IMG/VR virus record: IMGVR_UViG_3300042549_004702
Coordinates: 1-60,420 of that record
Reading direction: 5' to 3' (one strand)
Origin: a virus
Length of the DNA stretch: 60,420 nt
Both the position numbers and the translations under genes were made by a program. How positions within the stretch are numbered: the stretch's first letter is position 1; every line of letters starts with the position of its first letter. Positions 4,035-60,420 of the stretch are shown in pieces. The notes beneath the pieces were generated by a model. It did no database searches. It was not told where the DNA came from and saw nothing but the letters and a program-made list of their open reading frames with translations.

Positions 4035-4763
4035 TTAGAAACGGTACACGATGCCGTTCAGCAAAACGGCAGAGATCTCGGCAGTCTTGCCGATGCTGAG
4101 GTATCCCTCAGCAGACCAACTGCCTACCAGCCCATCCGCCGACAGCTCAAGATTATAAGCGTCGTCGGACGCCGCCATCTTATCGAAAAGCGCGGTGACG
4201 CTCTCCGCCGTGGTTTTGTGCATTGATCGCCACTCGTCGGTGGCGAAAGCAACGGTCTCGATCAGCTGGGCAGCGCGGCCCACTGGCAACTCCTCGATCG
4301 TCTCAGGTTCGTCCTCCTCGCAGCCGACGAAACCAGCGTGCCGGAACACGGCAACCTTGCGGACGCTGCCGTCCGGCTGCGTCTGATCAACGCTCTCCCG
4401 GACGCTGAAAGCGTACATAGGCGTGATCCCGTGCGCACGAAGGGCGGACTCGAGTGGGGCCATCAGGTACGGCGCGCCGCCGATCATGGCGTATTCGAAG
4501 CAGTTAGCCTCAGTGTGGAGCGGCTCTCCGGCCCACTCCTGGGCGTACGGCAACGCCGATTTTTCGCGCCAAATCGCGCAGCTCGCTATCTTGGCGATCT
4601 GCTGTGCCCTTTGCGCAACCTCGCTTGAGCTGGGCAGAGTCTCAAATGTCAGTAGTGAGCGAATTTCCATGATCTGCTCTGGGGATAGCTCCCCTGAGGT
4701 CACTCCGGCGGCGATCTGCTCAGTAGTGGCGGTGTGCTGGGTAAGGTTGAGTATTCGGTTCAT
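4035..4763 (-). CDS. TQHxAT-type conserved phage protein (242 aa)
   Basis: The N-terminus MNRILNLTQHTATTEQIAAG is a recognisable conserved start found in many phage and plasmid proteins of unknown function. The middle (about residues 70-165) contains PYAQEWAGEP and a segment around MIGGAPYLMAPLE. The last 70 residues read as a separate beta-rich segment. The ribosome site AACAGGAGAAAC is preceded by a GGGGC/GCCCC hairpin, the arrangement repeated at other genes of this block. Function unknown. Confidence 0.7.
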   Translation of the reverse strand: MNRILNLTQHTATTEQIAAGVTSGELSPEQIMEIRSLLTFETLPSSSEVAQRAQQIAKIASCAIWREKSALPYAQEWAGEPLHTEANCFEYAMIGGAPYLMAPLESALRAHGITPMYAFSVRESVDQTQPDGSVRKVAVFRHAGFVGCEEDEPETIEELPVGRAAQLIETVAFATDEWRSMHKTTAESVTALFDKMAASDDAYNLELSADGLVGSWSAEGYLSIGKTAEISAVLLNGIVYRF

Positions 4764-5255: not shown

Positions 5256-5284
5256 AATATATCGCGAGTAATAGTTATTGTCAA
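5256..5284 (-). promoter_or_regulatory. Sigma70-type leftward promoter
   Basis: Read leftward: TTGACA (complement of 5279-5284), a 17-bp spacer, then TATATT (complement of 5256-5261). An upstream element AAAATAACTG is shared with the promoter at 7696-7725. It would drive the gene at 4961-5191 and everything downstream. The promoter overlaps the 3' end of the 5281-5847 gene. Confidence 0.75.
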
Positions 5285-5847
5285 CAGTTATTTTGCAAGT
5301 CGTTTACTTTTTTCTCGTCCACGACTGGATCATCCCAAACGCGCACTCCGTGAGACTCCGACCTGACGTGAAGCCCGATCTCTACCGCCAGCTCGTGCGC
5401 AGTCCGTGAGCACACGTCGATCGAGCCGCGCGTTGTCGCCGAGAAGCGAATGTACACGCGCTGAGTAGCTGGCACGTCCGTCAAACCGCGCACCAGGCAC
5501 AGCGTACACGTCCCGACGGATCGCACGTCGTAATTGACGTCGTCGATGCGCGGCCACACCTCGACGATAGCGATAGGCTCGAAGGAATACCCAGCGGTGA
5601 TAGCAGCGACCGCCTCTGTGCGTGTCTCCCAGCACTCCGGAGAGCGTCGGGGGAACTGCCCCCCCTGCTCTATGCGCCATCCATCAGCGGCGCGCACGAC
5701 GCGCTGAGCCGTGCTGGCTGCTGCTTCTCTCGCCGCTAGACGCGCATCTAGCGCGCGGTCATTGCGCTTCTTCAGCTGTGTCGGAGTCGCCGACACGCTC
5801 GACGACAGCGACATTGGCCGCAGTCTATTTTCGATTTTGGGCTTCAC
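5281..5847 (-). CDS. Hypothetical protein (188 aa)
   Basis: The GTG ending at 5847 has AGGAG at 4-5 bases spacing; a TTG at 5865 would add six residues. Residues 30-60 are Arg/Ala-rich and basic, followed by a mixed alpha/beta segment with C-x2-C (TCTLCL). The stop codon lies inside the -35 element of the next promoter. No family is recognised. Confidence 0.55.
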   Translation of the reverse strand: MKPKIENRLRPMSLSSSVSATPTQLKKRNDRALDARLAAREAAASTAQRVVRAADGWRIEQGGQFPRRSPECWETRTEAVAAITAGYSFEPIAIVEVWPRIDDVNYDVRSVGTCTLCLVRGLTDVPATQRVYIRFSATTRGSIDVCSRTAHELAVEIGLHVRSESHGVRVWDDPVVDEKKVNDLQNNC

Positions 5848-6819: not shown

Positions 6820-6855
6820 TCTCCTGTGGTTGCGCGGCCCGATCACGAGCCGCTG
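6820..6855 (-). repeat. Leader module copy: hairpin plus ribosome site (36 bp)
   Basis: An exact 36-bp copy of 7090-7125, 270 bp away. Read leftward it is a GC-rich hairpin (GCGGCTC / GGGCCGC, 7 pairs with one G-T, 6-base loop) followed by CACAGGAGA and then the start codon of the 6168-6815 gene. It is a portable translation-initiation leader. Related hairpin leaders precede the genes at 7140 and 4035. Confidence 0.75.
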
Positions 6856-6866
6856 ATAGTTGATAG

Positions 6867-7085
6867 TTATTTTGTAAAAATCCACGCGCGCTTATCGGTA
6901 AGGTCTGCGTCCGACATATCCCCACCGCCGAAGCAATCCTCGCTATTGGCGCAGCCCGTGTGATATGCGACGTACTGACCGTCGGCAGGGATCGGCTCAG
7001 ACTGGGGGTGAATATCGTTGAGGTTGACTGCGTACCCGCAAACTGCGCACCGTTGCGGGGCGTTGATCTGGTTCATTTTACTCAT
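6867..7085 (-). CDS. Small cysteine-containing protein (72 aa)
   Basis: Begins MSKMNQINAPQRCAVCGYAV. A CxxC pair near residue 13 and further Cys and His near residues 42-51 suggest a small zinc-binding domain. Its leader (7090-7125) is the exact 36-bp hairpin module shared with the next gene. Function unknown. Confidence 0.6.
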   Translation of the reverse strand: MSKMNQINAPQRCAVCGYAVNLNDIHPQSEPIPADGQYVAYHTGCANSEDCFGGGDMSDADLTDKRAWIFTK

Positions 7086-7089
7086 TGTT

Positions 7090-7125
7090 TCTCCTGTGGT
7101 TGCGCGGCCCGATCACGAGCCGCTG
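7090..7125 (-). repeat. Leader module copy: hairpin plus ribosome site (36 bp)
   Basis: Identical to 6820-6855 over 36 bp. The hairpin stem GCGGCTC/GGGCCGC is followed by CACAGGAGA and the start of the 6867-7085 gene. The variant at 7338-7381 keeps the hairpin but with a different loop side (GCGGCTTGTC / GACGAGCCGC), so pairing is kept while sequence changes. Confidence 0.75.
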
Positions 7126-7139
7126 GTTGTGGTGAATGG

Positions 7140-7337
7140 TTAGGCTGCGTCTTCGAGATCCTCGATAGTGAGACTTTCGAGTGCCGGCGACCAGTCGTCG
7201 CCATACTCAAGGCCCATATCGTGAGCCGTGTCCACGACGAGAGCGACAGCGGCTTCGAAGGTCGCCGGTGTGACTTCATTTTGAAAGCAGCCGTCAACCC
7301 AGTTTTGGACATCTCGTCTACTATTCATCTTACGCAT
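7140..7337 (-). CDS. Small acidic protein (65 aa)
   Basis: Begins MRKMNSRRDVQNWVDGCF and ends in an acidic helix (LTIEDLEDAA). It is preceded by a variant of the hairpin leader and AGGAGAAACA. No domain is recognised; charge and length resemble small phage inhibitors of host proteins, which is only a guess. Confidence 0.6.
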   Translation of the reverse strand: MRKMNSRRDVQNWVDGCFQNEVTPATFEAAVALVVDTAHDMGLEYGDDWSPALESLTIEDLEDAA

Positions 7338-7395
7338 TGTTTCTCCTGTGGTTGTGCGGCTCGTCGCAGGACAAGCCGCTGATTGTGGTGGGTGA

Positions 7396-7695: not shown

Positions 7696-7725
7696 ACTAT
7701 ACCGGAGACCGTGAATTATTGTCAA
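7696..7725 (-). promoter_or_regulatory. Sigma70-type leftward early promoter
   Basis: Read leftward: TTGACA (complement of 7720-7725), an 18-bp spacer and TATAGT (complement of 7696-7701). The flank upstream of -35 (TTGCAAAATAACTG) is identical to the promoter at 5256-5284. The element lies between divergent genes, so the adjacent HTH protein (7807-8052) is a natural candidate regulator. Confidence 0.75.
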
Positions 7726-7746
7726 CAGTTATTTTGCAAATAAATT
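7719..7746 (+). promoter_or_regulatory. Possible divergent rightward promoter
   Basis: TTGTCA at 7719-7724, a 16-bp spacer and TAAATT at 7741-7746, in a strongly AT-rich stretch. Its -35 overlaps the leftward -35, so the two promoters would compete or be co-regulated. Weak matches make this tentative. Confidence 0.35.
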
Positions 7747-11662: not shown

Positions 11663-12534
11663 AGCTAACCAAGATCCTTAGCAGTCCGATTGCTTTTCAT
11701 CGATGCCTTGCAGAGTTGGCCGGGTCGGTGACATCTGGCTTGATGCTCAGTCAGGCCGTGTATTGGATGGGAAAGACCAAAGATCCGGATGGATGGTTCT
11801 GGAAGACTCAGGACGACTGGTTGGAAGAGACGATGCTCAGTCGAAAAGAGCAGGAATCTGCTCGTCGTCGGCTGAGAGAGATCACTTTTGAGGGGGAATC
11901 TTTGTGGTGTGAGCAGCTGCGTGGCGTACCGGCAAAGCTTTATTATCGAGTCGATATGGACATACTAGAACGCCTCTTAACGGCAGACCAGTATGCCCAA
12001 AAGGAGCAATCCAGTATGCCCAAAAGGGGCATACTAGAAAGCCCAAAAGGGGCATACAAGAACGCCCAAAAGGGGCATACATTCTTATTAGCAGAGACTA
12101 CTACAGAGACTACATCAGAGAGTACGGCAGAGAGTACGACAGAAACCACGGAACCGGCGCGCGCGCCGAGACCTCTTCACGTAGTCGAGAGTGCAGACAT
12201 TGACAGCTTAGGCGACGCATTCGACGAAGCCTACCCTGGCATGTTCAATCAGTGGGGAAAGCTGAAAGACATGCGTGAGCTTGTCAAACGCCTGAATGCG
12301 AATGCATCGCACGTACGAGAGTTTCCATCATGGCTCAAAAGAGCCTACCCCCTAAAAGCGAACAATCACTTTGCGTTCATGGATCTCTTCCCCGAGTTCG
12401 TGAAGCAGTCACCAAAGAAAGCGACTAAGCCTGTCTCCACTTGCGGCAAGTGTGATGCCGGGTACGTCGTCAACGATCAGGGGCTTGCGGCTAAATGCCC
12501 TTGCCAGTCACCACGTCAGGCCAAAGCAGTCTGA
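11659..12534 (+). CDS. Replication initiator / replisome organiser with internal origin
   Basis: 291 residues. The N-terminal ~105 residues carry the phage initiator winged-helix pattern (LMLSQAVYWMGKTKDPDGWF, then GVPAKLYYRVD). A Thr/Glu-rich linker lies near residues 145-165, followed by a helical region and a Cys-rich C-terminus (CGKC ... CPC) that may bind zinc. The coding sequence contains a 23-bp iteron array (11972-12080). DnaB follows directly. This is the lambda O / SPP1 gp38 arrangement: the initiator binds iterons in its own gene and loads the helicase. Confidence 0.8.
   Translation: MKLTKILSSPIAFHRCLAELAGSVTSGLMLSQAVYWMGKTKDPDGWFWKTQDDWLEETMLSRKEQESARRRLREITFEGESLWCEQLRGVPAKLYYRVDMDILERLLTADQYAQKEQSSMPKRGILESPKGAYKNAQKGHTFLLAETTTETTSESTAESTTETTEPARAPRPLHVVESADIDSLGDAFDEAYPGMFNQWGKLKDMRELVKRLNANASHVREFPSWLKRAYPLKANNHFAFMDLFPEFVKQSPKKATKPVSTCGKCDAGYVVNDQGLAAKCPCQSPRQAKAV
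11972..12080 (+). repeat. 23-bp iteron array, probable replication origin
   Basis: GCCCAAAAGGGGCATAC-type units start at 11995 (one change), 12018, 12041 and 12064, exactly 23 bp apart, and a decayed unit fits at 11972. The second unit is a full inverted repeat (GTATGCCC, AAAAG, GGGCATAC). Since 23 is not a multiple of three, the protein text differs at each unit, so selection is on DNA. Short CAGAGA-type repeats follow at about 12090-12160. Position within the initiator gene matches the lambdoid origin design. Confidence 0.85.
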
Positions 12535-15630: not shown

Positions 15631-16218
15631 ATGGTGCGCGTGATTCGCGATCAGGATATCGACGATCCGACCATCGAAGAATACGTGCACTTCCCAACGC
15701 CCGGACGCCTCGCGCCGTCTGTGCCAGTAGTGGCACAAGATCAGTCACAACCAGTGGCACAGTCAGTGGCACAAGCTCAGAATATCGAGTCTGTGCCCGT
15801 GACTGACTCGGTGGCACAAGGCCAAAATTCCGACCGTGTGACCAGCCCGTCACCGGTGGCACAATCGCCAATAATGCCGCCTGTGCCCGTGACACAACCA
15901 GTGGCACAGATACGTGTGTCACTAGTGGCACAACGGCCAAATCGGAGGTCATGTGCCACTAGTGGCACATTGGCGTTAAGGTCTGCTAAAATCAACAACT
16001 TACCGAAAGGCAAGTCTCACACTGTGCCACCACCAAAAATAGCGGGGCACGAGTGGCGACAAGCCGGTGCGGGATGGTCACTCTGGCGACGTGTGCCCAC
16101 AATTTCGGCGACAGGCAAGCGCACTTCTGAGCGCAAATATGTGCGATACATTACTCAGTCTGCAATCGAAAGGATCTACAATCGGAATGGAAAATCGAAA
16201 CCACAAACCAAGTCTTGA
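15631..16218 (+). CDS. Protein with PVAQ-type repeats and conserved C-terminal domain (195 aa)
   Basis: Residues 30-105 are a low-complexity region with seven xVAQ repeats, each encoded by GTGGCACA(A/G), the half-site of the palindrome array. The last ~65 residues (GHEWRQAGAGWSLWRRVP ... KYVRYITQSAIERIY) form a compact basic domain of a kind often seen in phage DNA-associated proteins. The repeats may be dictated by the DNA sites, not by protein function. A nucleic-acid-binding role is inferred from charge. Confidence 0.6.
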   Translation: MVRVIRDQDIDDPTIEEYVHFPTPGRLAPSVPVVAQDQSQPVAQSVAQAQNIESVPVTDSVAQGQNSDRVTSPSPVAQSPIMPPVPVTQPVAQIRVSLVAQRPNRRSCATSGTLALRSAKINNLPKGKSHTVPPPKIAGHEWRQAGAGWSLWRRVPTISATGKRTSERKYVRYITQSAIERIYNRNGKSKPQTKS

Positions 16219-16413
16219 GGAGGTGCAAAGTTGGCCTGTGCCACTTCAGCAGCTCGAACTTGCAATGCTCTGTGACTCGCCCGTGCCACTAGTGGCACAG
16301 CAGGCACAAGATCACCTATTCGTGGAAATCTCCATCGACACACCACAGCTCATATGCCAATTATGGGAGGAACAAGAGAGAGCTCAGGCCGTCATTTGAC
16401 GGCCCGTGCCACA
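15720..16413. repeat. Array of TGTGCCACTAGTGGCACA palindromes and half-sites
   Basis: Full or one-mismatch palindromes lie at 15720-15737, 15915-15932, 15951-15970 (perfect 20-mer) and 16282-16299. Half-sites (AGTGGCACA or TGTGCCACT and close variants) lie at 15753, 15765, 15792, 15810, 15855, 15882, 15900, 16023, 16237 and 16405. The sites continue through two genes in different reading frames and into the gap before the gene at 16431, so selection is on DNA. The spacing and density suggest a partition-like centromere, an operator cluster or a second initiation region. The best candidate binder is the 16431-17357 product. Confidence 0.8.
16187..16399 (+). CDS. Small acidic protein (70 aa)
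   Basis: Starts MENRNHKPSLEEVQSWPVPL, with GAAAGGA about 14 bases upstream, and overlaps the previous gene by 32 bases. It contains one full palindrome and one half-site of the array as coding sequence (PVPLVAQ). It is mostly helical and acidic; function unknown. Confidence 0.5.
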   Translation: MENRNHKPSLEEVQSWPVPLQQLELAMLCDSPVPLVAQQAQDHLFVEISIDTPQLICQLWEEQERAQAVI

Positions 16414-30605: not shown

Positions 30606-31286
30606 ATGGAACTGACCACGTCACGACTGATATACCCAGACGCGCCTTCGGGATTGCTGTCTGGGTATTGTTCTATTTGCGGCCAGTACGACATCACGCA
30701 CTTCCACCGCAACGACCTACTGACTCCCACCTCGGCCAACCTCACGGCCATCTTCGACTTTCACCACGAGCACGTTTGCCGCTTCTGTTCCGCTATATGG
30801 CGAGAACCGAAGAAGTATCACCGTGCAATTTACGCCGATCACGAATCGGTGCTATTCCCCGTGATATCTGCGGAGACCGCATCATCGGAGCGTCCGTTAT
30901 GGGCCGACGTTATCCGGCAAATGCCGACAGACCGAGAGCGCGTTATCGTGCTCACCACAGATCCTAAGAAGCGAGTGTGGCCATTTGCGCGCATCAGCTC
31001 CGGTAATGTGGCGTGCATATACCTTCACGATCCATCGCGTGGAGTGTCGGGCAATACCTGGGTAGAGATAGCACGGCTGAGAGAATGCCTTGTGATCATC
31101 GAAGAGGCTTACGAGCTTGGATTTTCGAAGCCAGCGATCGAGGAGTCGCTATTCACGTCCTACAATCAACTACAGGCCGTAGGATTGGCCACAACAACAC
31201 GAATGGAGAAAGCCATATCATCGTATAGGGCCACTCCTGAATTCCTGCCTGCGCTCATTGTGGCGCAAAGAAAGGTAACACTATGA
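30606..31286 (+). CDS. Csf1-like zinc-finger protein of a type IV CRISPR-like complex
   Basis: 226 residues. Cys22, Cys25, Cys58 and Cys61 form a split CxxC ... CxxC zinc finger with the intervening text HFHRNDLLT ... HHEHVC, the layout of Csf1 (Cas8-like large subunit of type IV effectors). The middle contains VIVLTTDPKKRVWPFARIS and the C-terminus is helical. The gene is followed with an ATGA overlap by Cas7/Csf2- and Cas5/Csf3-like genes, which is the strongest support. Csf1 identity from the finger alone would be weak. Confidence 0.7.
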   Translation: MELTTSRLIYPDAPSGLLSGYCSICGQYDITHFHRNDLLTPTSANLTAIFDFHHEHVCRFCSAIWREPKKYHRAIYADHESVLFPVISAETASSERPLWADVIRQMPTDRERVIVLTTDPKKRVWPFARISSGNVACIYLHDPSRGVSGNTWVEIARLRECLVIIEEAYELGFSKPAIEESLFTSYNQLQAVGLATTTRMEKAISSYRATPEFLPALIVAQRKVTL

Positions 31287-32719
31287 CCACATCAAACACT
31301 GGGATAATCGCGCCGTACCGATTCACGGCAAAGGCCACATCCACGGTTGCCCACGGAGAAGCCGGAGCCAACTCGACCGGGGCCAATAACACGACACTCT
31401 TTGCCCGGGAGTTGACATTGCTTCAGCGTGACCAGCTCTCGTACAGCAGCGACAAGGCGCAAGCGGCGATTGAATCACTGATGAACGTGATGCCGATCAC
31501 CGAGTCGTCTGTCGAGTTCCTTCGAACGCTATCAGGCGGCGAATTGATCGCGACACTATTTGCTGCTCAATTTCCGATCATTTATCGCGGCGAAGGAGAA
31601 GGACTATTCGCCGGACTCGAGCGTTACCAGTACCTGACAACGCGCCTGACTGACTCAGCCGTAGCTTGCACTACGCTTGCAACTGCGTGGGCGTACGTCT
31701 CGCGAAAGCTGAATCTGACCGCGCCATCAGCCTCGGCGCATATGCCGTTGATGGCACTCTTTGCACTGCCGAAGCCGATACAGGCGGCTGCGCTTGCGTC
31801 AGTCCTGAAAGCTCCTGAGATGGTCGTTATGGGCGCGCGAATGCTAGCCGAAGGACTCAAGGCCACTAACTGGAAATACGCAGAAGCCGCAGATCGAGAG
31901 ACCGAAGAGAAGGCTCAGTACAACGTGACATCTACGCAGCTTCTCGAGTTGTCGGCGAATAGGGGCAGCGTGCTAGCCGTGCGAATCCCTGCGATATCGG
32001 GCAACTCGCTTCGCCACAACATACTACGCGCACCAGGTGCGACGCGCCTTTTGTCGCATCTTGGACTTGGGCCGAATCAAACAATGGTACCGATCGCCGT
32101 TGAGCGGTTCCTGTACTCTGGCGGCAACACCGTCAAGGGCGCGAAGGCTCCGGGGGCGGCGGATCTACTAGAAGCAAAGGTGCGTAGTCACTATCCGATC
32201 GTTGACGCACTTGGCGGATCGTTCGATATGTTCCTGCTCACTCGGTCGCAGGTCAGCGTAAATAGCTGGATAGTATGCCGGGAGAATAACTGGATCACGG
32301 AGCGTAAGACAGAGGGAAGCATCGGATCCGATGTATCGATCTTCGATCTTATCAGCGAGGTGACACGTACTCGGTCAGGCATTGGCGGCAAGGACAAGGA
32401 GTCGGGACAGATGATCTTTGCCTACGAAGCTTTGGCCGCTCAGACAGAGATACTTGTAGAGGTCAGCTTCCAGCCATACACGCAGTTTGTCACGATTGGC
32501 GCGGTGATGCAGGCGTTGACGGACTGGAACACGGAAGGCGCGTTTCTTGGCGCGAAGTCGGCGCAGGGGCACTCGCAGTGGTTGCCAGACTTCCCGGATG
32601 ATGATCGATGGGCACTTGCTGCCGACTACATCGCACACCTCGACAAGAACCGAGAGACGTTGCGCGATGGACTCATCAAGGCCACATTCGGAACGGAGGT
32701 GCAGCTTTGTGGAGCGTAA
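31283..32719 (+). CDS. Cas7/Csf2-like RAMP protein with helical insertion
   Basis: 478 residues. RAMP/Cas7 features of Csf2 are visible: an N-terminal beta segment (FTAKATSTVAHGEAG), VRIPAISGNSLRHNILR at 234-249, RFLYSGGN near 275-282, and VRSHYPIVDALGGSFD ... SVNSWIVCREN at 300-335. Csf2 forms the crRNA-binding backbone of type IV effectors. Residues ~50-215 are an extra, mostly helical segment absent from simple Cas7 proteins, which may replace a missing Cas11 small subunit. Stop and next start overlap (TAATG). Confidence 0.8.
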   Translation: MTTSNTGIIAPYRFTAKATSTVAHGEAGANSTGANNTTLFARELTLLQRDQLSYSSDKAQAAIESLMNVMPITESSVEFLRTLSGGELIATLFAAQFPIIYRGEGEGLFAGLERYQYLTTRLTDSAVACTTLATAWAYVSRKLNLTAPSASAHMPLMALFALPKPIQAAALASVLKAPEMVVMGARMLAEGLKATNWKYAEAADRETEEKAQYNVTSTQLLELSANRGSVLAVRIPAISGNSLRHNILRAPGATRLLSHLGLGPNQTMVPIAVERFLYSGGNTVKGAKAPGAADLLEAKVRSHYPIVDALGGSFDMFLLTRSQVSVNSWIVCRENNWITERKTEGSIGSDVSIFDLISEVTRTRSGIGGKDKESGQMIFAYEALAAQTEILVEVSFQPYTQFVTIGAVMQALTDWNTEGAFLGAKSAQGHSQWLPDFPDDDRWALAADYIAHLDKNRETLRDGLIKATFGTEVQLCGA

Positions 32720-33447
32720 TGCACATTCCAGAGCTTGACGAGTATGGCGATCGTATAGCGGCTCTCGAGTATGAGCCGCTCAAGGTCACGGTGACGACGG
32801 ACTCGCCCGTCAGCTGCAATGATCCGATATCGCTTGACGGAGTGTTGGCATACGCAATGGTCACGGATGCACTCAAGGGACGGCCTTTTCCGCAAGGAAA
32901 GGGCCCATACTGGCAGCCGCTTCCGCTCCATTGCGCAAAGCTGATTGAGGGTTTGCCGCTATGGTCAAGTACCGACTTTGTACCGACCAACCTTCACAAG
33001 CGAATGACTCACATCCACAGACGGACGGCGGATAACCCGTACGCAATGATCGGCCTGATGCGATCTGCCTACGACAAGCGACCGCGCCGCTTCCCGTCTT
33101 CGGCCGCGGGGCCGTATATGGACTATCGAGTACCAGAGCGTCGTTACGTCGCGGAGTCGTGGTCGGCATTGTGTCTCGGCAATCTTGAAGAGGTGCGACG
33201 ACTTCTCACGCTTGTTGCGACTTTTGGCAAAGGCGGCAAGCGTGGGTCGGGATACGTTCGGCAATGGACGGTTGAGCCGGTCGCAGACTTTTCATTCTAC
33301 ACGCACGATGGCCGCGCTTTGCGCCCAGTGCCTATTGGTGCCACTGAAACAGCGTGGGCAGGGGTAAGGCAAGGGTGGACTCCTCCCTACTGGCTCAAGG
33401 AAACGTGGCTGCTTTGTCAGCCGTCAGATGTGGCATCGATATTATGA
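32719..33447 (+). CDS. Cas5/Csf3-like RAMP protein
   Basis: 242 residues from the ATG overlapping the Csf2-like stop. The N-terminus (LKVTVTTDSPVSCNDPISLDGVLAYAMV) matches the Csf3 pattern of a first RAMP strand followed by a dGLLAY-type helix. A Gly-rich loop at 169-183 (GKGGKRGSGYVRQW) is the typical RAMP C-terminal loop. Csf3 caps the 5' end of the crRNA in the complex. Position and overlaps fit csf1-csf2-csf3 order. Confidence 0.78.
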   Translation: MHIPELDEYGDRIAALEYEPLKVTVTTDSPVSCNDPISLDGVLAYAMVTDALKGRPFPQGKGPYWQPLPLHCAKLIEGLPLWSSTDFVPTNLHKRMTHIHRRTADNPYAMIGLMRSAYDKRPRRFPSSAAGPYMDYRVPERRYVAESWSALCLGNLEEVRRLLTLVATFGKGGKRGSGYVRQWTVEPVADFSFYTHDGRALRPVPIGATETAWAGVRQGWTPPYWLKETWLLCQPSDVASIL

Positions 33448-34247
33448 GCATTGTGAGCTGGGCCGATTACGGAATTACGGGTGAGGTCACGGTTGGACGA
33501 CCGGCAGCGGCAGCACCCTACAAGCGTCAGATTCAGCGACGCATCGACAAGGCATTGTCGGACATTGACCGCTTGGCCGTCTCCACAGACGGCCATTTTT
33601 ACTCGGCAATATCATTCGGTGCTGATTCGCTGGTCGCTGATCATCTGATGCGCCGCTACTATCCCGATCATCCGGCAATGTGGGTCAATCAAGGGCCGCT
33701 TGCTGAATGGCCTGACTGCCTGGCACTCAAGGATCAGATGGTAGCCAACGGTCTGCCGCTGGTCGAGTTGACACCGGACGTCACGCTCTACGATTGGTAT
33801 CGATTACACGGCATCCCGACGTCTTCGGCAATGGATAGCAAGGACGACAAGGAGCTGAACGAAGCGTTGATGTACGCGCCTATCCGGCGATACCAGGAGT
33901 CATCGGCGGCGCGTGGCTACTTGTGGGGGCTGAGGTATGATGGCGAAGGCAACCATCGTCGGATACTGATCCAAAGTCGAGGCACGCTATATCATCGAAA
34001 GACCGATGGTCAGTATGTGTGCTCTCCCGTCGGTCACTGGAGCAAGCACGAGATATGGGCATACATCGACCTGTTTGCGCTGCCCTACGCGAAGATGTAC
34101 GACATTGACCGACTCGAGATCCGCAACGGGCCGCCAATCGGCACAAGCGCGTTGAATATGGGGCGAATCGTGAAGCTGAAGCACAACTTCCCGCATATTT
34201 GGCGAGTAGCTGTCAGTGAGTTTCCCGAGTTGCAGAGGTACACGTGA
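33444..34247 (+). CDS. CysH-like PP-loop protein (PAPS reductase family)
   Basis: 267 residues starting at an ATG that overlaps the csf3-like stop (ATGA). The PP-loop SFGADS at 57-62 takes the place of SGGKDS, followed by VADHLMRRY. Later text includes CSPVGHWSKHEIWAYIDLFALPYAKMYD, typical of PAPS reductases. It lacks an obvious C-terminal redox Cys motif, so it may activate a substrate with ATP without sulfate reduction. CysH-like genes are a known companion of type IV-B csf loci. Confidence 0.85.
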   Translation: MSIVSWADYGITGEVTVGRPAAAAPYKRQIQRRIDKALSDIDRLAVSTDGHFYSAISFGADSLVADHLMRRYYPDHPAMWVNQGPLAEWPDCLALKDQMVANGLPLVELTPDVTLYDWYRLHGIPTSSAMDSKDDKELNEALMYAPIRRYQESSAARGYLWGLRYDGEGNHRRILIQSRGTLYHRKTDGQYVCSPVGHWSKHEIWAYIDLFALPYAKMYDIDRLEIRNGPPIGTSALNMGRIVKLKHNFPHIWRVAVSEFPELQRYT

Positions 34248-55204: not shown

Positions 55205-55237
55205 AAAAGGCCGCGCCATTATTGACGCGGCCTTTTT
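55205..55237. terminator. Bidirectional intrinsic terminator
   Basis: AAAAGGCCGCG (55205-55215) pairs with CGCGGCCTTTT (55226-55236), loop of 10, with T-runs on both strands. It ends the late rightward operon and the leftward operon finishing with the sliding clamp gene at 55263. Confidence 0.92.
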
Positions 55238-55262: not shown

Positions 55263-56360
55263 TCAGATCCTCATCGGCATCACGATATACTGGTAATCGT
55301 AGTCACCGTCATCTGTGGGTCTCATCACGATCTGTGACGCACTGTCCTTGTAGTCGATGGTCATATTTACAGCATTGCAAGCGGTGAAGAAGTCGGCCAC
55401 GTACCCAGACTTCAGCCCTATCGACTGACCTATCAACGCTTCCGGGACGTTTGACGGCACATCCTCGCCAGCGTCTCCCACGTCCTGAGATGCAGCCGAT
55501 ATACTCACGAGGTCGCGATTCATCGTCAGCTTGACCGACGATGACTGAGCGTCTGCAACCAACGCAACTCGACGTAACGCAGACGCAAACTCTTGAGCGT
55601 TGACTGCGATCCGCTCAGGATGATTCGCCATCACAAGCCGATAGTTAGGGAACTGACCAGCAAGTACACGGCTGGCAATGACGCGCTTGCCGACCTCAAA
55701 GAACACCGTAGTGTCTTCGTATCCGATCGATATAGTGTCCGATGACGACGCCAGTTTTGACACAAGGTCGAGTGTCTTGGCGGGAATCAGCACGTCAATA
55801 GGCGCGCCTTCGTAGTACACGTCACGCTCGATGTATGCCATTCGGTGACTGTCTGTGGCGACCATTCGCGCCTTGCCTTCGGCCAGTTCAAACTTGACGC
55901 CATTGAGCGCGTATCGCGATTCTTCCTTCGATGCGGCGAACTGTACGCGATCAATCATTGTGCTGAGAATCGATGCAGATATCGGTAGCAGGGAAGAAGG
56001 AGCAGTGCGCCTGTCGGGATATCCGTCAGGGTGAGTTGTCGAAAGCCTAAATCGGCTGCGCTGGCACTTGATCACGGCTTCGGTGTCGTTCGTGGTAATC
56101 GTGATCTCAGCGTCTGGCAGTGCCTTTACGATGTCGTGAAAACGCTTTGCGGGAATGCACGCTGATCCTTCGCTATCGATCGTCGCATCAGCGAAGGTCG
56201 CGATATGCACGTCAAGGTCTGTAGCTCGAAGATTCAATCCCCCACTCGTTGAGGATATATGCACATTTTGGAGTATCGGAATTGAGGACTTGCGCTCAAC
56301 TGCGCCTTGCAGGAATGCGAGTTCTTTGAGGAGTGATGATTTGCCTATTCTGAAGTTCAT
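55263..56360 (-). CDS. dnaN: DNA polymerase III beta sliding clamp
   Basis: 365 residues, the usual length. The three-domain pattern is clear: KELAFLQGAVERKSSIPILQNVHI at the start, TDLDVHI, KFELAEGKARMVATDSHRMAY in domain 2, and the C-terminal YQYIVMPMRI. It forms the dimeric ring that tethers DNA polymerase. Phage clamps of bacterial type are uncommon; since no phage replicative polymerase was recognised, it may redirect the host polymerase. Confidence 0.93.
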   Translation of the reverse strand: MNFRIGKSSLLKELAFLQGAVERKSSIPILQNVHISSTSGGLNLRATDLDVHIATFADATIDSEGSACIPAKRFHDIVKALPDAEITITTNDTEAVIKCQRSRFRLSTTHPDGYPDRRTAPSSLLPISASILSTMIDRVQFAASKEESRYALNGVKFELAEGKARMVATDSHRMAYIERDVYYEGAPIDVLIPAKTLDLVSKLASSSDTISIGYEDTTVFFEVGKRVIASRVLAGQFPNYRLVMANHPERIAVNAQEFASALRRVALVADAQSSSVKLTMNRDLVSISAASQDVGDAGEDVPSNVPEALIGQSIGLKSGYVADFFTACNAVNMTIDYKDSASQIVMRPTDDGDYDYQYIVMPMRI

Positions 56361-56587
56361 TTGTTGTCGTTTCCTTTTGTGTTGTTGAGGTTGTCGGTGT
56401 CGAGTGAGTCCGGCCAGTCGGTATCAGATATCTCGATACCTGGCATTGTCGATATGTTGACCGCCGGTTCGGACTCGTTGTAGGTCTGAGTGATCGTCAC
56501 TCCGTTGCCCTTGCCGTGATTGATCAGTAGCCCCGTGATTACGCCCATTGCGTAAATAAAGATCAGGGCTGCGGTAGTTGTGTCCAT
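56357..56587 (-). CDS. Single-pass membrane protein (76 aa)
   Basis: Starts MDTTTAALIFIYAMGVITGLLINHGKG behind AAAGGC. One membrane helix is at residues 5-24; the rest is acidic and Asn-rich (NNTKGNDNK). It overlaps dnaN by four bases. Between a Cas6e-like gene and a clamp gene its role is unclear. Confidence 0.6.
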   Translation of the reverse strand: MDTTTAALIFIYAMGVITGLLINHGKGNGVTITQTYNESEPAVNISTMPGIEISDTDWPDSLDTDNLNNTKGNDNK

Positions 56588-56616: not shown

Positions 56617-57291
56617 TTAGACCAGCAGCAGCCCGTAGCCAAACGCTTTGCCCGTGCCTATACCATCGCATAGGGCAAGCCTGAAGTCGTCAGCGTTGGT
56701 GACGCGAAGTGTTCCGGCAAAGTCGATGCTGGTGAAGGTCATTCGACGGTCGCCATATCCGCTGAGGCTCGATGCGGTCACGAGCTGGCGACCGATCTTG
56801 TGTTCAGGCTGTCCGCACTTGCTGAGATGGAGAACCTCAAAGCCTGACTGTTCAGACTTGCGCTTGAGCCAGTCGTGCCAGCCGGACTCGTCTCTGATGG
56901 CGACTCGCTTTCCGTTGATGCCGTTCTTGCTGGATAGTCGCTTGGTGGGATTGCCGCGAAGGAGGAAGGGCATTACCTCGTCAGTGGTGATAGCGTCGTA
57001 CCTGGAAGCGATGCTGGCGCACGACGACTCTTCGATATTGTCGAAGTAGTCGAACGGTATACCATTGGCAGACCAGTCAGGCAGGATGCGTGACTGGACG
57101 ATGATCCGCGGGCGGTGGAGAGTGTCGTCGGTCTCGAGTCGATAGAGGACTCCGAAGTGGCGGCGTGACTCTTCGATGTTCGGCATCTCCGGGAAGGCGC
57201 GCATCAGTCGCCGATGAAGCGCGTGACAGTCTTCAAGCTCCATCTGTACGATGCGCCGTGTGTGGTTTGGGTATAAAACCGAGACGAACAA
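56617..57291 (-). CDS. Cas6e-type CRISPR RNA endoribonuclease
   Basis: 224 residues, normal Cas6e length. The CasE/Cse3 pattern is present throughout: MFVSVLYPNHTRRIVQMELED, LHRRLMRAFP with His26 in the position of the E. coli catalytic His20, GVLYRLE, IIVQSRILPDWS, FLLRGNPTKRL, GKRVAI, WLKRKSEQSGF, FAGTLRV and the C-terminal Gly-rich loop GIGTGKAFGYG. It should cut hairpin repeats to make crRNA. The TTG start has AAAGGA upstream. No array, Cas1, Cas2 or Cas3 is nearby, but Csf-like proteins are encoded at 30.6-33.4 kb. Confidence 0.88.
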   Translation of the reverse strand: MFVSVLYPNHTRRIVQMELEDCHALHRRLMRAFPEMPNIEESRRHFGVLYRLETDDTLHRPRIIVQSRILPDWSANGIPFDYFDNIEESSCASIASRYDAITTDEVMPFLLRGNPTKRLSSKNGINGKRVAIRDESGWHDWLKRKSEQSGFEVLHLSKCGQPEHKIGRQLVTASSLSGYGDRRMTFTSIDFAGTLRVTNADDFRLALCDGIGTGKAFGYGLLLV

Positions 57292-57356
57292 TGTGGTGAT
57301 CCTTTCTGTGTGAGAGGCTGGAAGTCCTGATTTTACTGCATTATTGTCATTTCCCT

Positions 57357-57433
57357 ATTTACTAAATAGTGGTTTAGTAATACTAGGTTGTTTTGGTTTA
57401 GATATGGCTTAGTAAAGTCATTTAGTAAAGTCA
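57357..57433. promoter_or_regulatory. TTTAGTAAA box cluster upstream of the cas6e-like gene
   Basis: ATTTACTAAAT (57357-57367) and TTTAGTAAT (57373-57381) are followed by two exact TTAGTAAAGTCA units at 57409 and 57422, 13 bp apart. The AT-rich 126-bp gap has no gene. The boxes are near-palindromic and probably bind a repressor controlling cas6e and the downstream clamp gene. Two of the boxes lie inside the 3' end of the upstream gene. Confidence 0.55.
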
Positions 57434-57946: not shown

Positions 57947-58834
57947 CTAGCCAACTTTGAGAAAATCACCGGACGACTCGTCCGGCCTATTGTGCAAGTA
58001 TCGATCGGTGATTGAGATCGACGAATGACCCAGCGTTGAGCTGACTAGCTTCAGCGGCGCGCCGTGGTCGAGTGAGTGTGTGGCGTGGCTATGCCTGAAC
58101 CAGTGCGGCGAGAGCTTGTCCGTGATGCCTGCGCGCTTCGCCGTAGCCTTGACGATACTCCACGCCCTCTGACGGGTGATCGGAAAGATACGCTCGCTAT
58201 TCTCTGCCCCGTCACGAATATCCTGCAACGCTGACACAAGCGTTAGCGGTATCTGTACCACTCGCGTCTTGCCGCCTTTGCCGAATAGCGTGACTTGGCC
58301 TTGCTCCGGCTTGACGACCAGATCCGCCCAGGTGATCGTTACCACTTCCGATATGCGGCCTGCCGTGCGATACATCATACGGATGAGTGCCTTGTCGCGA
58401 GGACTCCAAGCCGCCATCGTAAGCCTCAGTACCTCCTCTTCGGTCAGGATGCGTTCGTTGAGGGTATCCTTGCTTTGAGGTGCTCTCAGCAAAGCTGCCA
58501 CGTTGACGCGCACATATCCGATCTTGTGGCAGAAGCTGTACAACGACTTGACCGACGCTATCCGCTGCGCCTGAGTTGCCGGACGCATCGACGAGAGCGA
58601 CTCGGTGAAAATCAGCAGGTCATTCAGCGTCATCTCGCAGATCTGGCGACCAGTCACTTCGAAGAGGCGACGCACTGATAACTGGTACTGGTACACGGTC
58701 TTTGCGTTGCGCTTCGTCGCCAGCCATAGCGCGATGACCTGATCGTCATTCGCGGCATCAGCTACGGACATATCACCTGCATTGCGGATGAGCTGCCGTG
58801 GCTGTTCTGGTTCGTATCTCTGGATATTCGACAT
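57947..58834 (-). CDS. Tyrosine recombinase, XerD/integrase type
   Basis: 295 residues with all catalytic residues: Arg160 (TAGRISEV), Lys189 (GKGGKT), His244 and Arg247 (HWFRHSHATH), His270 (LGHSS) and Tyr279 (TDRYLH). The N-terminal SAM-like core-binding domain spans about residues 30-115. The overall layout is closer to XerC/XerD than to lambda Int, so it may resolve genome dimers as well as, or instead of, integrating. No attP was identified. Confidence 0.92.
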   Translation of the reverse strand: MSNIQRYEPEQPRQLIRNAGDMSVADAANDDQVIALWLATKRNAKTVYQYQLSVRRLFEVTGRQICEMTLNDLLIFTESLSSMRPATQAQRIASVKSLYSFCHKIGYVRVNVAALLRAPQSKDTLNERILTEEEVLRLTMAAWSPRDKALIRMMYRTAGRISEVVTITWADLVVKPEQGQVTLFGKGGKTRVVQIPLTLVSALQDIRDGAENSERIFPITRQRAWSIVKATAKRAGITDKLSPHWFRHSHATHSLDHGAPLKLVSSTLGHSSISITDRYLHNRPDESSGDFLKVG

Positions 58835-59952: not shown

Positions 59953-60413
59953 CTTGCACCTCCGTTGCAGCCGTCGTTAAATGCCGACTCGACGACGCGC
60001 ACCAACCACATCCCAAAGTACGCGCGCTGATGAGGATTGCCGCTGATCGAGTACGCGCGCACGAGTCCAGCCAACGTCATATTCGGGGCTTCGTCGTGCC
60101 ACGCTGCCAACCTGATGTCACCGATGATCGATGATCCGGCAATCGAGTACTGCACCGCAGCCGATGCGGACTCGTGGACGAAAAACGCATCACGCGATCC
60201 GCCGACGACGCGCAGGTATTGCACAGCGTCTACCGGCTGGAGGTATCCGTATGCTCTGCCCTGGACGATCACAGATCGGCGAAGCGGCTGATGCGTGGTG
60301 ATCGTTTCCGGCCGATAGACGCACACCGGCCCTCCGGGTGCATCGAATGACTGGGCGTGGGCGGGAATAGCCAGTGCGACTATCCCAAGTATCGTTGCGA
60401 GTATTGCTTTCAT
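59949..60413 (-). CDS. Secreted small protein with signal peptide (154 aa)
   Basis: Residues 1-20 (MKAILATILGIVALAIPAHA) are a Sec signal peptide with AHA cleavage site. The mature part is beta-rich with SVIVQGRAYGYLQPVDAVQYL and a helical C-terminus with one Cys near each end, so a disulfide is possible. It is exported to the periplasm or beyond. The gene crosses the contig junction (second partial copy at 1-131). Function unknown; exclusion or lysis roles are possible. Confidence 0.7.
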   Translation of the reverse strand: MKAILATILGIVALAIPAHAQSFDAPGGPVCVYRPETITTHQPLRRSVIVQGRAYGYLQPVDAVQYLRVVGGSRDAFFVHESASAAVQYSIAGSSIIGDIRLAAWHDEAPNMTLAGLVRAYSISGNPHQRAYFGMWLVRVVESAFNDGCNGGAR

Positions 60414-60420
60414 AGTCCTC

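Follow-up and report, generated by a model that had tools for sequence, protein, structure and literature searches.

The IMG/VR virus record IMGVR_UViG_3300042549_004702 comprises 60,420 bases, and the window analyzed here is this entire record. Toward its right end, a block of leftward genes includes a cas6e gene located between an integrase and a sliding clamp:

57947-58834, minus strand: tyrosine integrase, upstream of cas6e (Pfam Phage_integrase, E 2e-31; PHROG integrase)
57292-57417: AT-rich gap upstream of cas6e (126 bases, 36% GC)
56617-57291, minus strand: cas6e, 224 aa, TTG start behind AAAGGA (full-length Pfam, PADLOC, and PDB matches; AlphaFold/Foldseek; His26)
56357-56587, minus strand: small ORF, membrane-protein-like, separating cas6e from the clamp
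55263-56360, minus strand: sliding clamp (DNA polymerase III beta), three Pfam domains
55205-55236, minus strand: terminator-like hairpin past the clamp

Read along the minus strand, the integrase is followed by two small overlapping ORFs, the 126-base gap, cas6e, the membrane-like ORF, the clamp, and the hairpin. The position and strand of cas6e are those given by a sequence-only reading of this DNA, and its proposed leftward operon near the clamp is borne out, with cas6e two genes upstream and the small ORF in between. The motif TTTAGTAAW occurs three times in the 60-kb window (0.4 expected), each time within 57358-57429, in the gap or just upstream of it, and the gap with this cluster is possibly a promoter/operator region. 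No sigma-70-type promoter pattern was found on the minus strand upstream of cas6e. The reading frame of cas6e is undamaged, and its GC content (57.5%; GC3 72%) is near the values of the other phage genes. Instead of a cas7e-cas5e-cas6e-cas1e operon, the gene is surrounded by the integrase side and the clamp.

This 60-kb phage encodes an integrase. Direct repeats of 138 nt at its ends (1-138 and 60283-60420) are 99% identical, so the genome is probably complete; joining the ends would probably unite the leftward genes at 8000-1532 with those at 60413-55263 in a single unit. Assigning a host by the coat protein was abandoned, as the nearest match, from Microcystis phage Me-ZS1 (53%), is too distant. 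Searches of viral sequences with the integrase and clamp as queries returned no match, and no Rfam family reached its gathering score on the window. Tandem 23-base repeats at 11959-12073 lie within an O-like replication initiation gene (PHROG), with a DnaB-like helicase gene after it; they are probably the phage origin, and the lambda origin has the same arrangement. The early-operon protein encoded at 4035-4763 (minus strand), behind a hairpin leader, matches PADLOC Csx20 over residues 84-146 (E 1.7e-6) and has no Pfam match. Csx20 proteins are ring nucleases associated with type III CRISPR loci (PMC12409355), and this Csx20-like gene could be, judging by its sequence, a counter-defense against type III systems. 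Palindromes of the type TGTGCCACTAGTGGCACA occur at 15720-15742, 15915-15937, 15952-15974, and 16282-16304, in or just after the ORF 15631-16218. Another element, TTGCAAAATAACTGTTGACAATAA, is repeated before early genes at 5275-5298, 6854-6877, and 7716-7739 (minus strand); it has a promoter-like -35, and two of its three copies are identical.

In bacteria, Cas6e is the enzyme that cuts out CRISPR guide RNAs. The phage protein matches this family from end to end, as previously claimed: its residues 1-224 align to positions 1-221 of 223 in the Pfam CRISPR_assoc profile PF08798 (143 bits against a cut-off of 25, E 1.6e-41), the PADLOC Cas6e model scores 137 bits (E 1.8e-40), and Cse3 of T. thermophilus is the best hit in a PDB sequence search (E about 1e-13). 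In agreement, the AlphaFold model (pLDDT 84, pTM 0.81) adopts the tandem ferredoxin-like Cas6e fold, with Thermus Cse3 as the top Foldseek hit (E about 1e-17, TM 0.77-0.81); the proposed structural check against E. coli Cas6e, made here as a Foldseek comparison only, gave 5cd4 at E 3.5e-14. The histidine singled out earlier as a candidate catalytic residue, His26, which we take to be catalytic as is established for Cas6e, aligns with His26 of Thermus Cse3 and is invariant across every set aligned, while the C-terminal glycine-rich loop is retained in the phage protein and all aligned relatives. A histidine replaces Tyr23, as it does in both cyanobacterial Cas6e proteins first aligned. With the fold present and His26 retained, the model shows no loss of the catalytic pocket, and membership in a non-CRISPR RAMP family is not supported, the relatives found being CRISPR Cas6e proteins. 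PHROGs contain no family for the protein. Judged by sequence and model, the product of 56617-57291 is a true, full-length Cas6e, and it is most likely an active Cas6-type RNase.

The best bacterial matches come from Planctomycetota (top 39%, E 1e-28) and cyanobacteria (31-36%), and the identity of 39% is the highest to any relative found. Where flanks are present, these bacterial genes appear to lie in I-E operons, several with arrays. Annotated phage records gave only distant matches, and exact peptide patterns retrieved no close Cas6e relative from viral contigs and GTDB genomes.

The same phage encodes a csf-cysH module on the plus strand:

30606-31286, plus strand: csf1 (Cas8-like; PADLOC Csf1_0_IV, E 7e-10)
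31283-32719, plus strand: csf2 (Cas7-like), long, 478 aa (PADLOC typeIV_Cas7, E 2e-26, residues 232-464)
32719-33447, plus strand: csf3 (Cas5-like; PADLOC Csf3_0_IV, E 6e-28 on the longer ORF 32608-33447), start set at the ATG overlapping the csf2 stop
33444-34247, plus strand: cysH-like gene (PAPS reductase domain; Pfam PF01507, E 2e-9, on the ORF 33354-34247; PHROG), start chosen by inspection

This module (30606-34247) is flanked by terminase and portal-like/coat genes. As the sequence-only reading noted, cas6e is far from it. The gene lies about 22 kb away on the other strand, yet the two are adjacent in other phages (see below). By sequence, the module has the features of type IV-B, namely csf1, csf2, csf3, a cysH-like gene beside csf3, and no array. 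The csf operon itself also lacks a crRNA-processing enzyme, as is typical of IV-B, but Cas6e is encoded elsewhere in the genome. DinG, Cas3, and Cascade proteins were absent from the listed PADLOC matches of the window proteins (in one scan, the best 25 of 37 families), and the type IV-A combination of a DinG helicase with an array was not found in this phage. Type IV-B has been described as lacking Cas6 (PMC8175902, PMC7937560), and by these descriptions Cas6e plus csf-cysH, with neither an array nor a detected DinG, is indeed the unusual combination that had been suggested.

Csf2 is long, at 478 aa against the usual length of about 285, and long versions also occur in the loci L005-L008 and L089. 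The part before residue 232 is unmatched by Cas7 models; residues about 55-195 are modeled as helices (pLDDT about 75-85), and outside this stretch the model is poor. A PDB search with this model was discarded as meaningless, the Cas7 part being poorly modeled (pLDDT 44). We found no separate Cas11 gene and therefore guess, from the model, that the long Csf2 might contain a built-in Cas11-like part; the PADLOC Cas11 models did not match the insertion.

No CRISPR array was detected in the 60-kb window by a script that recovers the array of the I-E control contig L029. Comparison with I-E repeats, namely those of the nearest relatives, E. coli, and Thermus (for example, GTCGTCCCCACGCACGTGGGGGTGAACCG of the planctomycete/cyanobacterial type), found nothing in the window clearly above shuffled sequence, which argues that the phage does not supply a I-E-like repeat itself; the comparison covers repeats of the I-E type, and that of the host may differ.

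Our profile scans of viral contigs revealed that Cas6e recurs next to csf genes. The first scan returned eight Cas6e loci, seven of them linked to csf (with L032 a near-copy of L033) and one, L029, an ordinary I-E system with an array; a second scan added L094. This leaves seven distinct viral records (L030, L031, L033, L034, L035, L036, and L094), in which cas6e lies directly upstream of csf1. Each of the seven gave a match to csf2, and behind csf1 come csf2 and cysH. PADLOC confirms cas6e, csf1, cas11, csf2, and csf3 in L036, cas6e and csf1 in L033, cas6e in L030, and csf1 in L035, the remaining gene order being taken from translations. L030, L031, L033, L034, L035, and L036 were checked for a CRISPR array, and none of the six carries one. 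The csf-linked Cas6e proteins form their own branch and are shorter, most of them about 187 aa long; the records are related to each other and thus are not seven independent cases. Even so, with cas6e directly upstream of csf-cysH in seven further viral records, Cas6e recurs as a partner of IV-B-like modules in phages. By their sequences, these records point to a partnership beyond the IV-B descriptions cited above, although it may have been noticed before in the literature on type IV diversity. The main text of the 2025 classification does not mention Cas6e (PMC12669027). PADLOC includes a generic type IV Cas6 model, Cas6_5_IV, so its makers must at least have noticed type IV Cas6 proteins that the IV-A models do not represent.

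Within the lineage of the phage itself, the link between Cas6e and csf is loose. G007 is collinear with the window (coat 90%, csf2 69%) but has no cas6e in its 50 kb, with other genes between the integrase and the clamp; before the clamp it carries an ORF that, judged by eye only, resembles 56357-56587. The region at about 9-22 kb of the window has no equivalent in the G007 record, so a Cas6e could be encoded in that missing part. G005 and G006 have csf genes and gave no match to two Cas6 families. These two records (L006/G005 and L007/G006) are 78-80 kb long and end in exact terminal repeats of 127 bases. Their module runs csf1-csf2-cysH-csf3, with cysH before csf3, their Csf2 is of the long form, and few of their other proteins are shared with the window. 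On plasmids, the csf loci H104, H128, and H133, examined closely, have no annotated Cas6. The Rhodococcus plasmid pCP209, with Cas6e and csf2 about 20 kb apart, was rejected as a parallel, its Cas6e lying in a normal I-E operon. The tree does not settle whether the phage Cas6e is a sister of the csf-linked proteins: the AU test rejected neither this grouping (p 0.079) nor those with cyanobacterial (0.22) or planctomycete (0.15) Cas6e.

Cas6e enzymes bind stem-loop repeats, cut them at the 3' base of the stem, and then retain the product. We tentatively propose, at something short of an even chance, that an active-looking Cas6e supplies host-derived stem-loop RNA to the Csf proteins or withdraws it from the host Cascade. 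In this view, the leftward operon of an integrase-bearing phage includes cas6e as an accessory gene, whose product would most likely bind I-E-type stem-loop repeats, cut them at the 3' stem base, and keep the product. As the phage has no array, the RNA would have to come from elsewhere, most likely from the CRISPR transcript of the host. The cut RNAs could pass in trans to a complex of Csf1, Csf2, and Csf3 with the CysH-like protein; at a minimum, they would be withdrawn from the host Cascade, presumably to the benefit of the phage. The earlier suggestions that the enzyme processes host crRNA or feeds the phage effector appear strengthened by the adjacent cas6e and csf genes of the seven other viral records.

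This explanation is supported by the family, the fold, His26, the glycine-rich loop, the undamaged reading frame with its phage-like GC content, and the recurrence beside csf in other phages. For an outside source of RNA speaks the lack of an array and of a I-E-like repeat in the window, while the nearest Cas6e relatives sit in I-E operons, several with arrays. Counting against it, the two loci are 22 kb apart on opposite strands, with csf among structural genes and cas6e in an early-looking operon, so the timing of their expression may differ. Moreover, the closest csf relatives lack cas6e, G007 at this site and G005/G006 altogether, and the tree leaves a position beside the csf-linked Cas6e unsettled. 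In addition, when a plasmid IV-B complex was co-expressed with a I-E Cas6 and array, crRNA was not enriched (PMC7937560), which argues against a general rule that IV-B takes up I-E crRNA; the plasmid system studied there does not itself encode a Cas6. The more specific proposal, in which an array-less IV-B-like phage system harvests host I-E guide RNAs through Cas6e during infection and loads them onto Csf, is put forward as rather unlikely. Host immunity would thereby be disarmed or redirected, the two halves of the system being encoded apart in this phage.

The strongest rival, itself rather doubtful, is that Cas6e acts against CRISPR independently of csf, competing with the host Cas6e for repeat RNA; a poor fit to the host Cascade would leave pre-crRNA tied up or miscut and lower I-E immunity. 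The nearest relatives are indeed I-E Cas6e proteins, the divergence is strong (identity of 39% or less) although His26 and the fold are kept, the gene is in an accessory position and absent from G007, and phage repeat-mimic RNAs that bind Cas6 are known to attack the same step (PMC10651486). This explanation presupposes that the host has a I-E system, and it leaves the recurrence of Cas6e beside csf in other phages unexplained. Another rival is a host Cas6e captured recently, without present use, and now being lost as a passenger gene. Such a history would suit the single occurrence within the lineage and the variable site between integrase and clamp, but we consider it quite unlikely, since the gene is open and full-length and retains its catalytic histidine and RNA-binding loop although no relative found exceeds 39% identity, a state not expected of a recent or unused copy.

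The sequence-only reading had also raised the cutting of phage hairpin leaders. Early genes at 4.8-7.4 kb (minus strand) have hairpins immediately 5' of the ribosome-binding site, among them:

6834-7379, minus strand: three hairpin leaders (6834-6853, 7104-7123, and 7356-7379) before AGGAG and ATG

Their stems have 8, 8, and 10 pairs, respectively, with 4-nt loops. If Cas6e cut them, it would set the 5' ends and the expression of early mRNAs, and the presence of 8-10-bp stems with 4-nt loops before the ribosome-binding sites of several genes in the leftward operon is what invites the idea. However, the csf-bearing G007 and G004, both probably incomplete and with no detected Cas6e, also have early-gene hairpin leaders, of other sequence, which weakens the proposal, and the likeness of the hairpins to I-E repeats is not beyond chance. 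The three leaders are thus unlikely Cas6e substrates, and we regard this role as improbable. Finally, misassembly of a bacterial I-E fragment into a phage contig could account for a gene present in one record only, but this is hardly credible, given that the flanking phage genes have G007 counterparts, that the neighbors are the clamp and the integrase side rather than cas5e and cas1e as in I-E relatives, that the GC content matches the phage, and that the record ends are 99% identical over 138 nt.

Returning to the proposed supply of stem-loop RNA to Csf, the RNA carried by type IV-B complexes is an open question (PMC8175902, PMC7937560). The recurrent Cas6e partner suggests that at least these phage IV-B-like modules use processed stem-loop RNA, and the seven csf-linked viral records provide named loci for testing such use. 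If the RNA is host crRNA, the system would represent a protein-based, crRNA-hijacking anti-CRISPR.

Among known systems, the closest counterpart of the protein itself is the type I-E Cas6e of T. thermophilus (TTHB192, Cse3/CasE; PDB 3qrp, 2y8w), with which it shares the full-length family match, fold, His26, and glycine-rich loop. In contrast to it, the phage copy is accompanied by neither a I-E operon nor an array, has at most 39% identity to any relative found, and carries histidine in place of Tyr23, as the two cyanobacterial proteins do. Type IV-A3 likewise combines Csf proteins with a Cas6e-type nuclease, but the phage has no array and no detected DinG, and the IV-A3 Cas6 model scores its protein at 25 bits, compared to 137 for the I-E Cas6e model. 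Racrs are phage RNAs that use host Cas6 and interfere with Cas6/crRNA (PMC10651486); a I-E-like Racr was not found in this phage. Fuxivirus also carries IV-B genes on a virus, but it has a mini-array, and the text describing it does not mention Cas6 (PMC10848311). The IV-B modules of the type csf1-(cas11)-csf2-csf3-cysH, for example on the Mycobacterium sp. JS623 plasmid (PMC7937560), share the operon of csf1-3 and a cysH-like gene and the lack of an array, whereas the phage has Cas6e elsewhere in its genome, a Csf2 of 478 instead of about 285 aa, and no separate Cas11 gene that we could find. The cas6e-csf1-cas11-csf2-csf3-cysH modules of the seven viral records hold these genes contiguously, whereas in this phage they are split between two loci.
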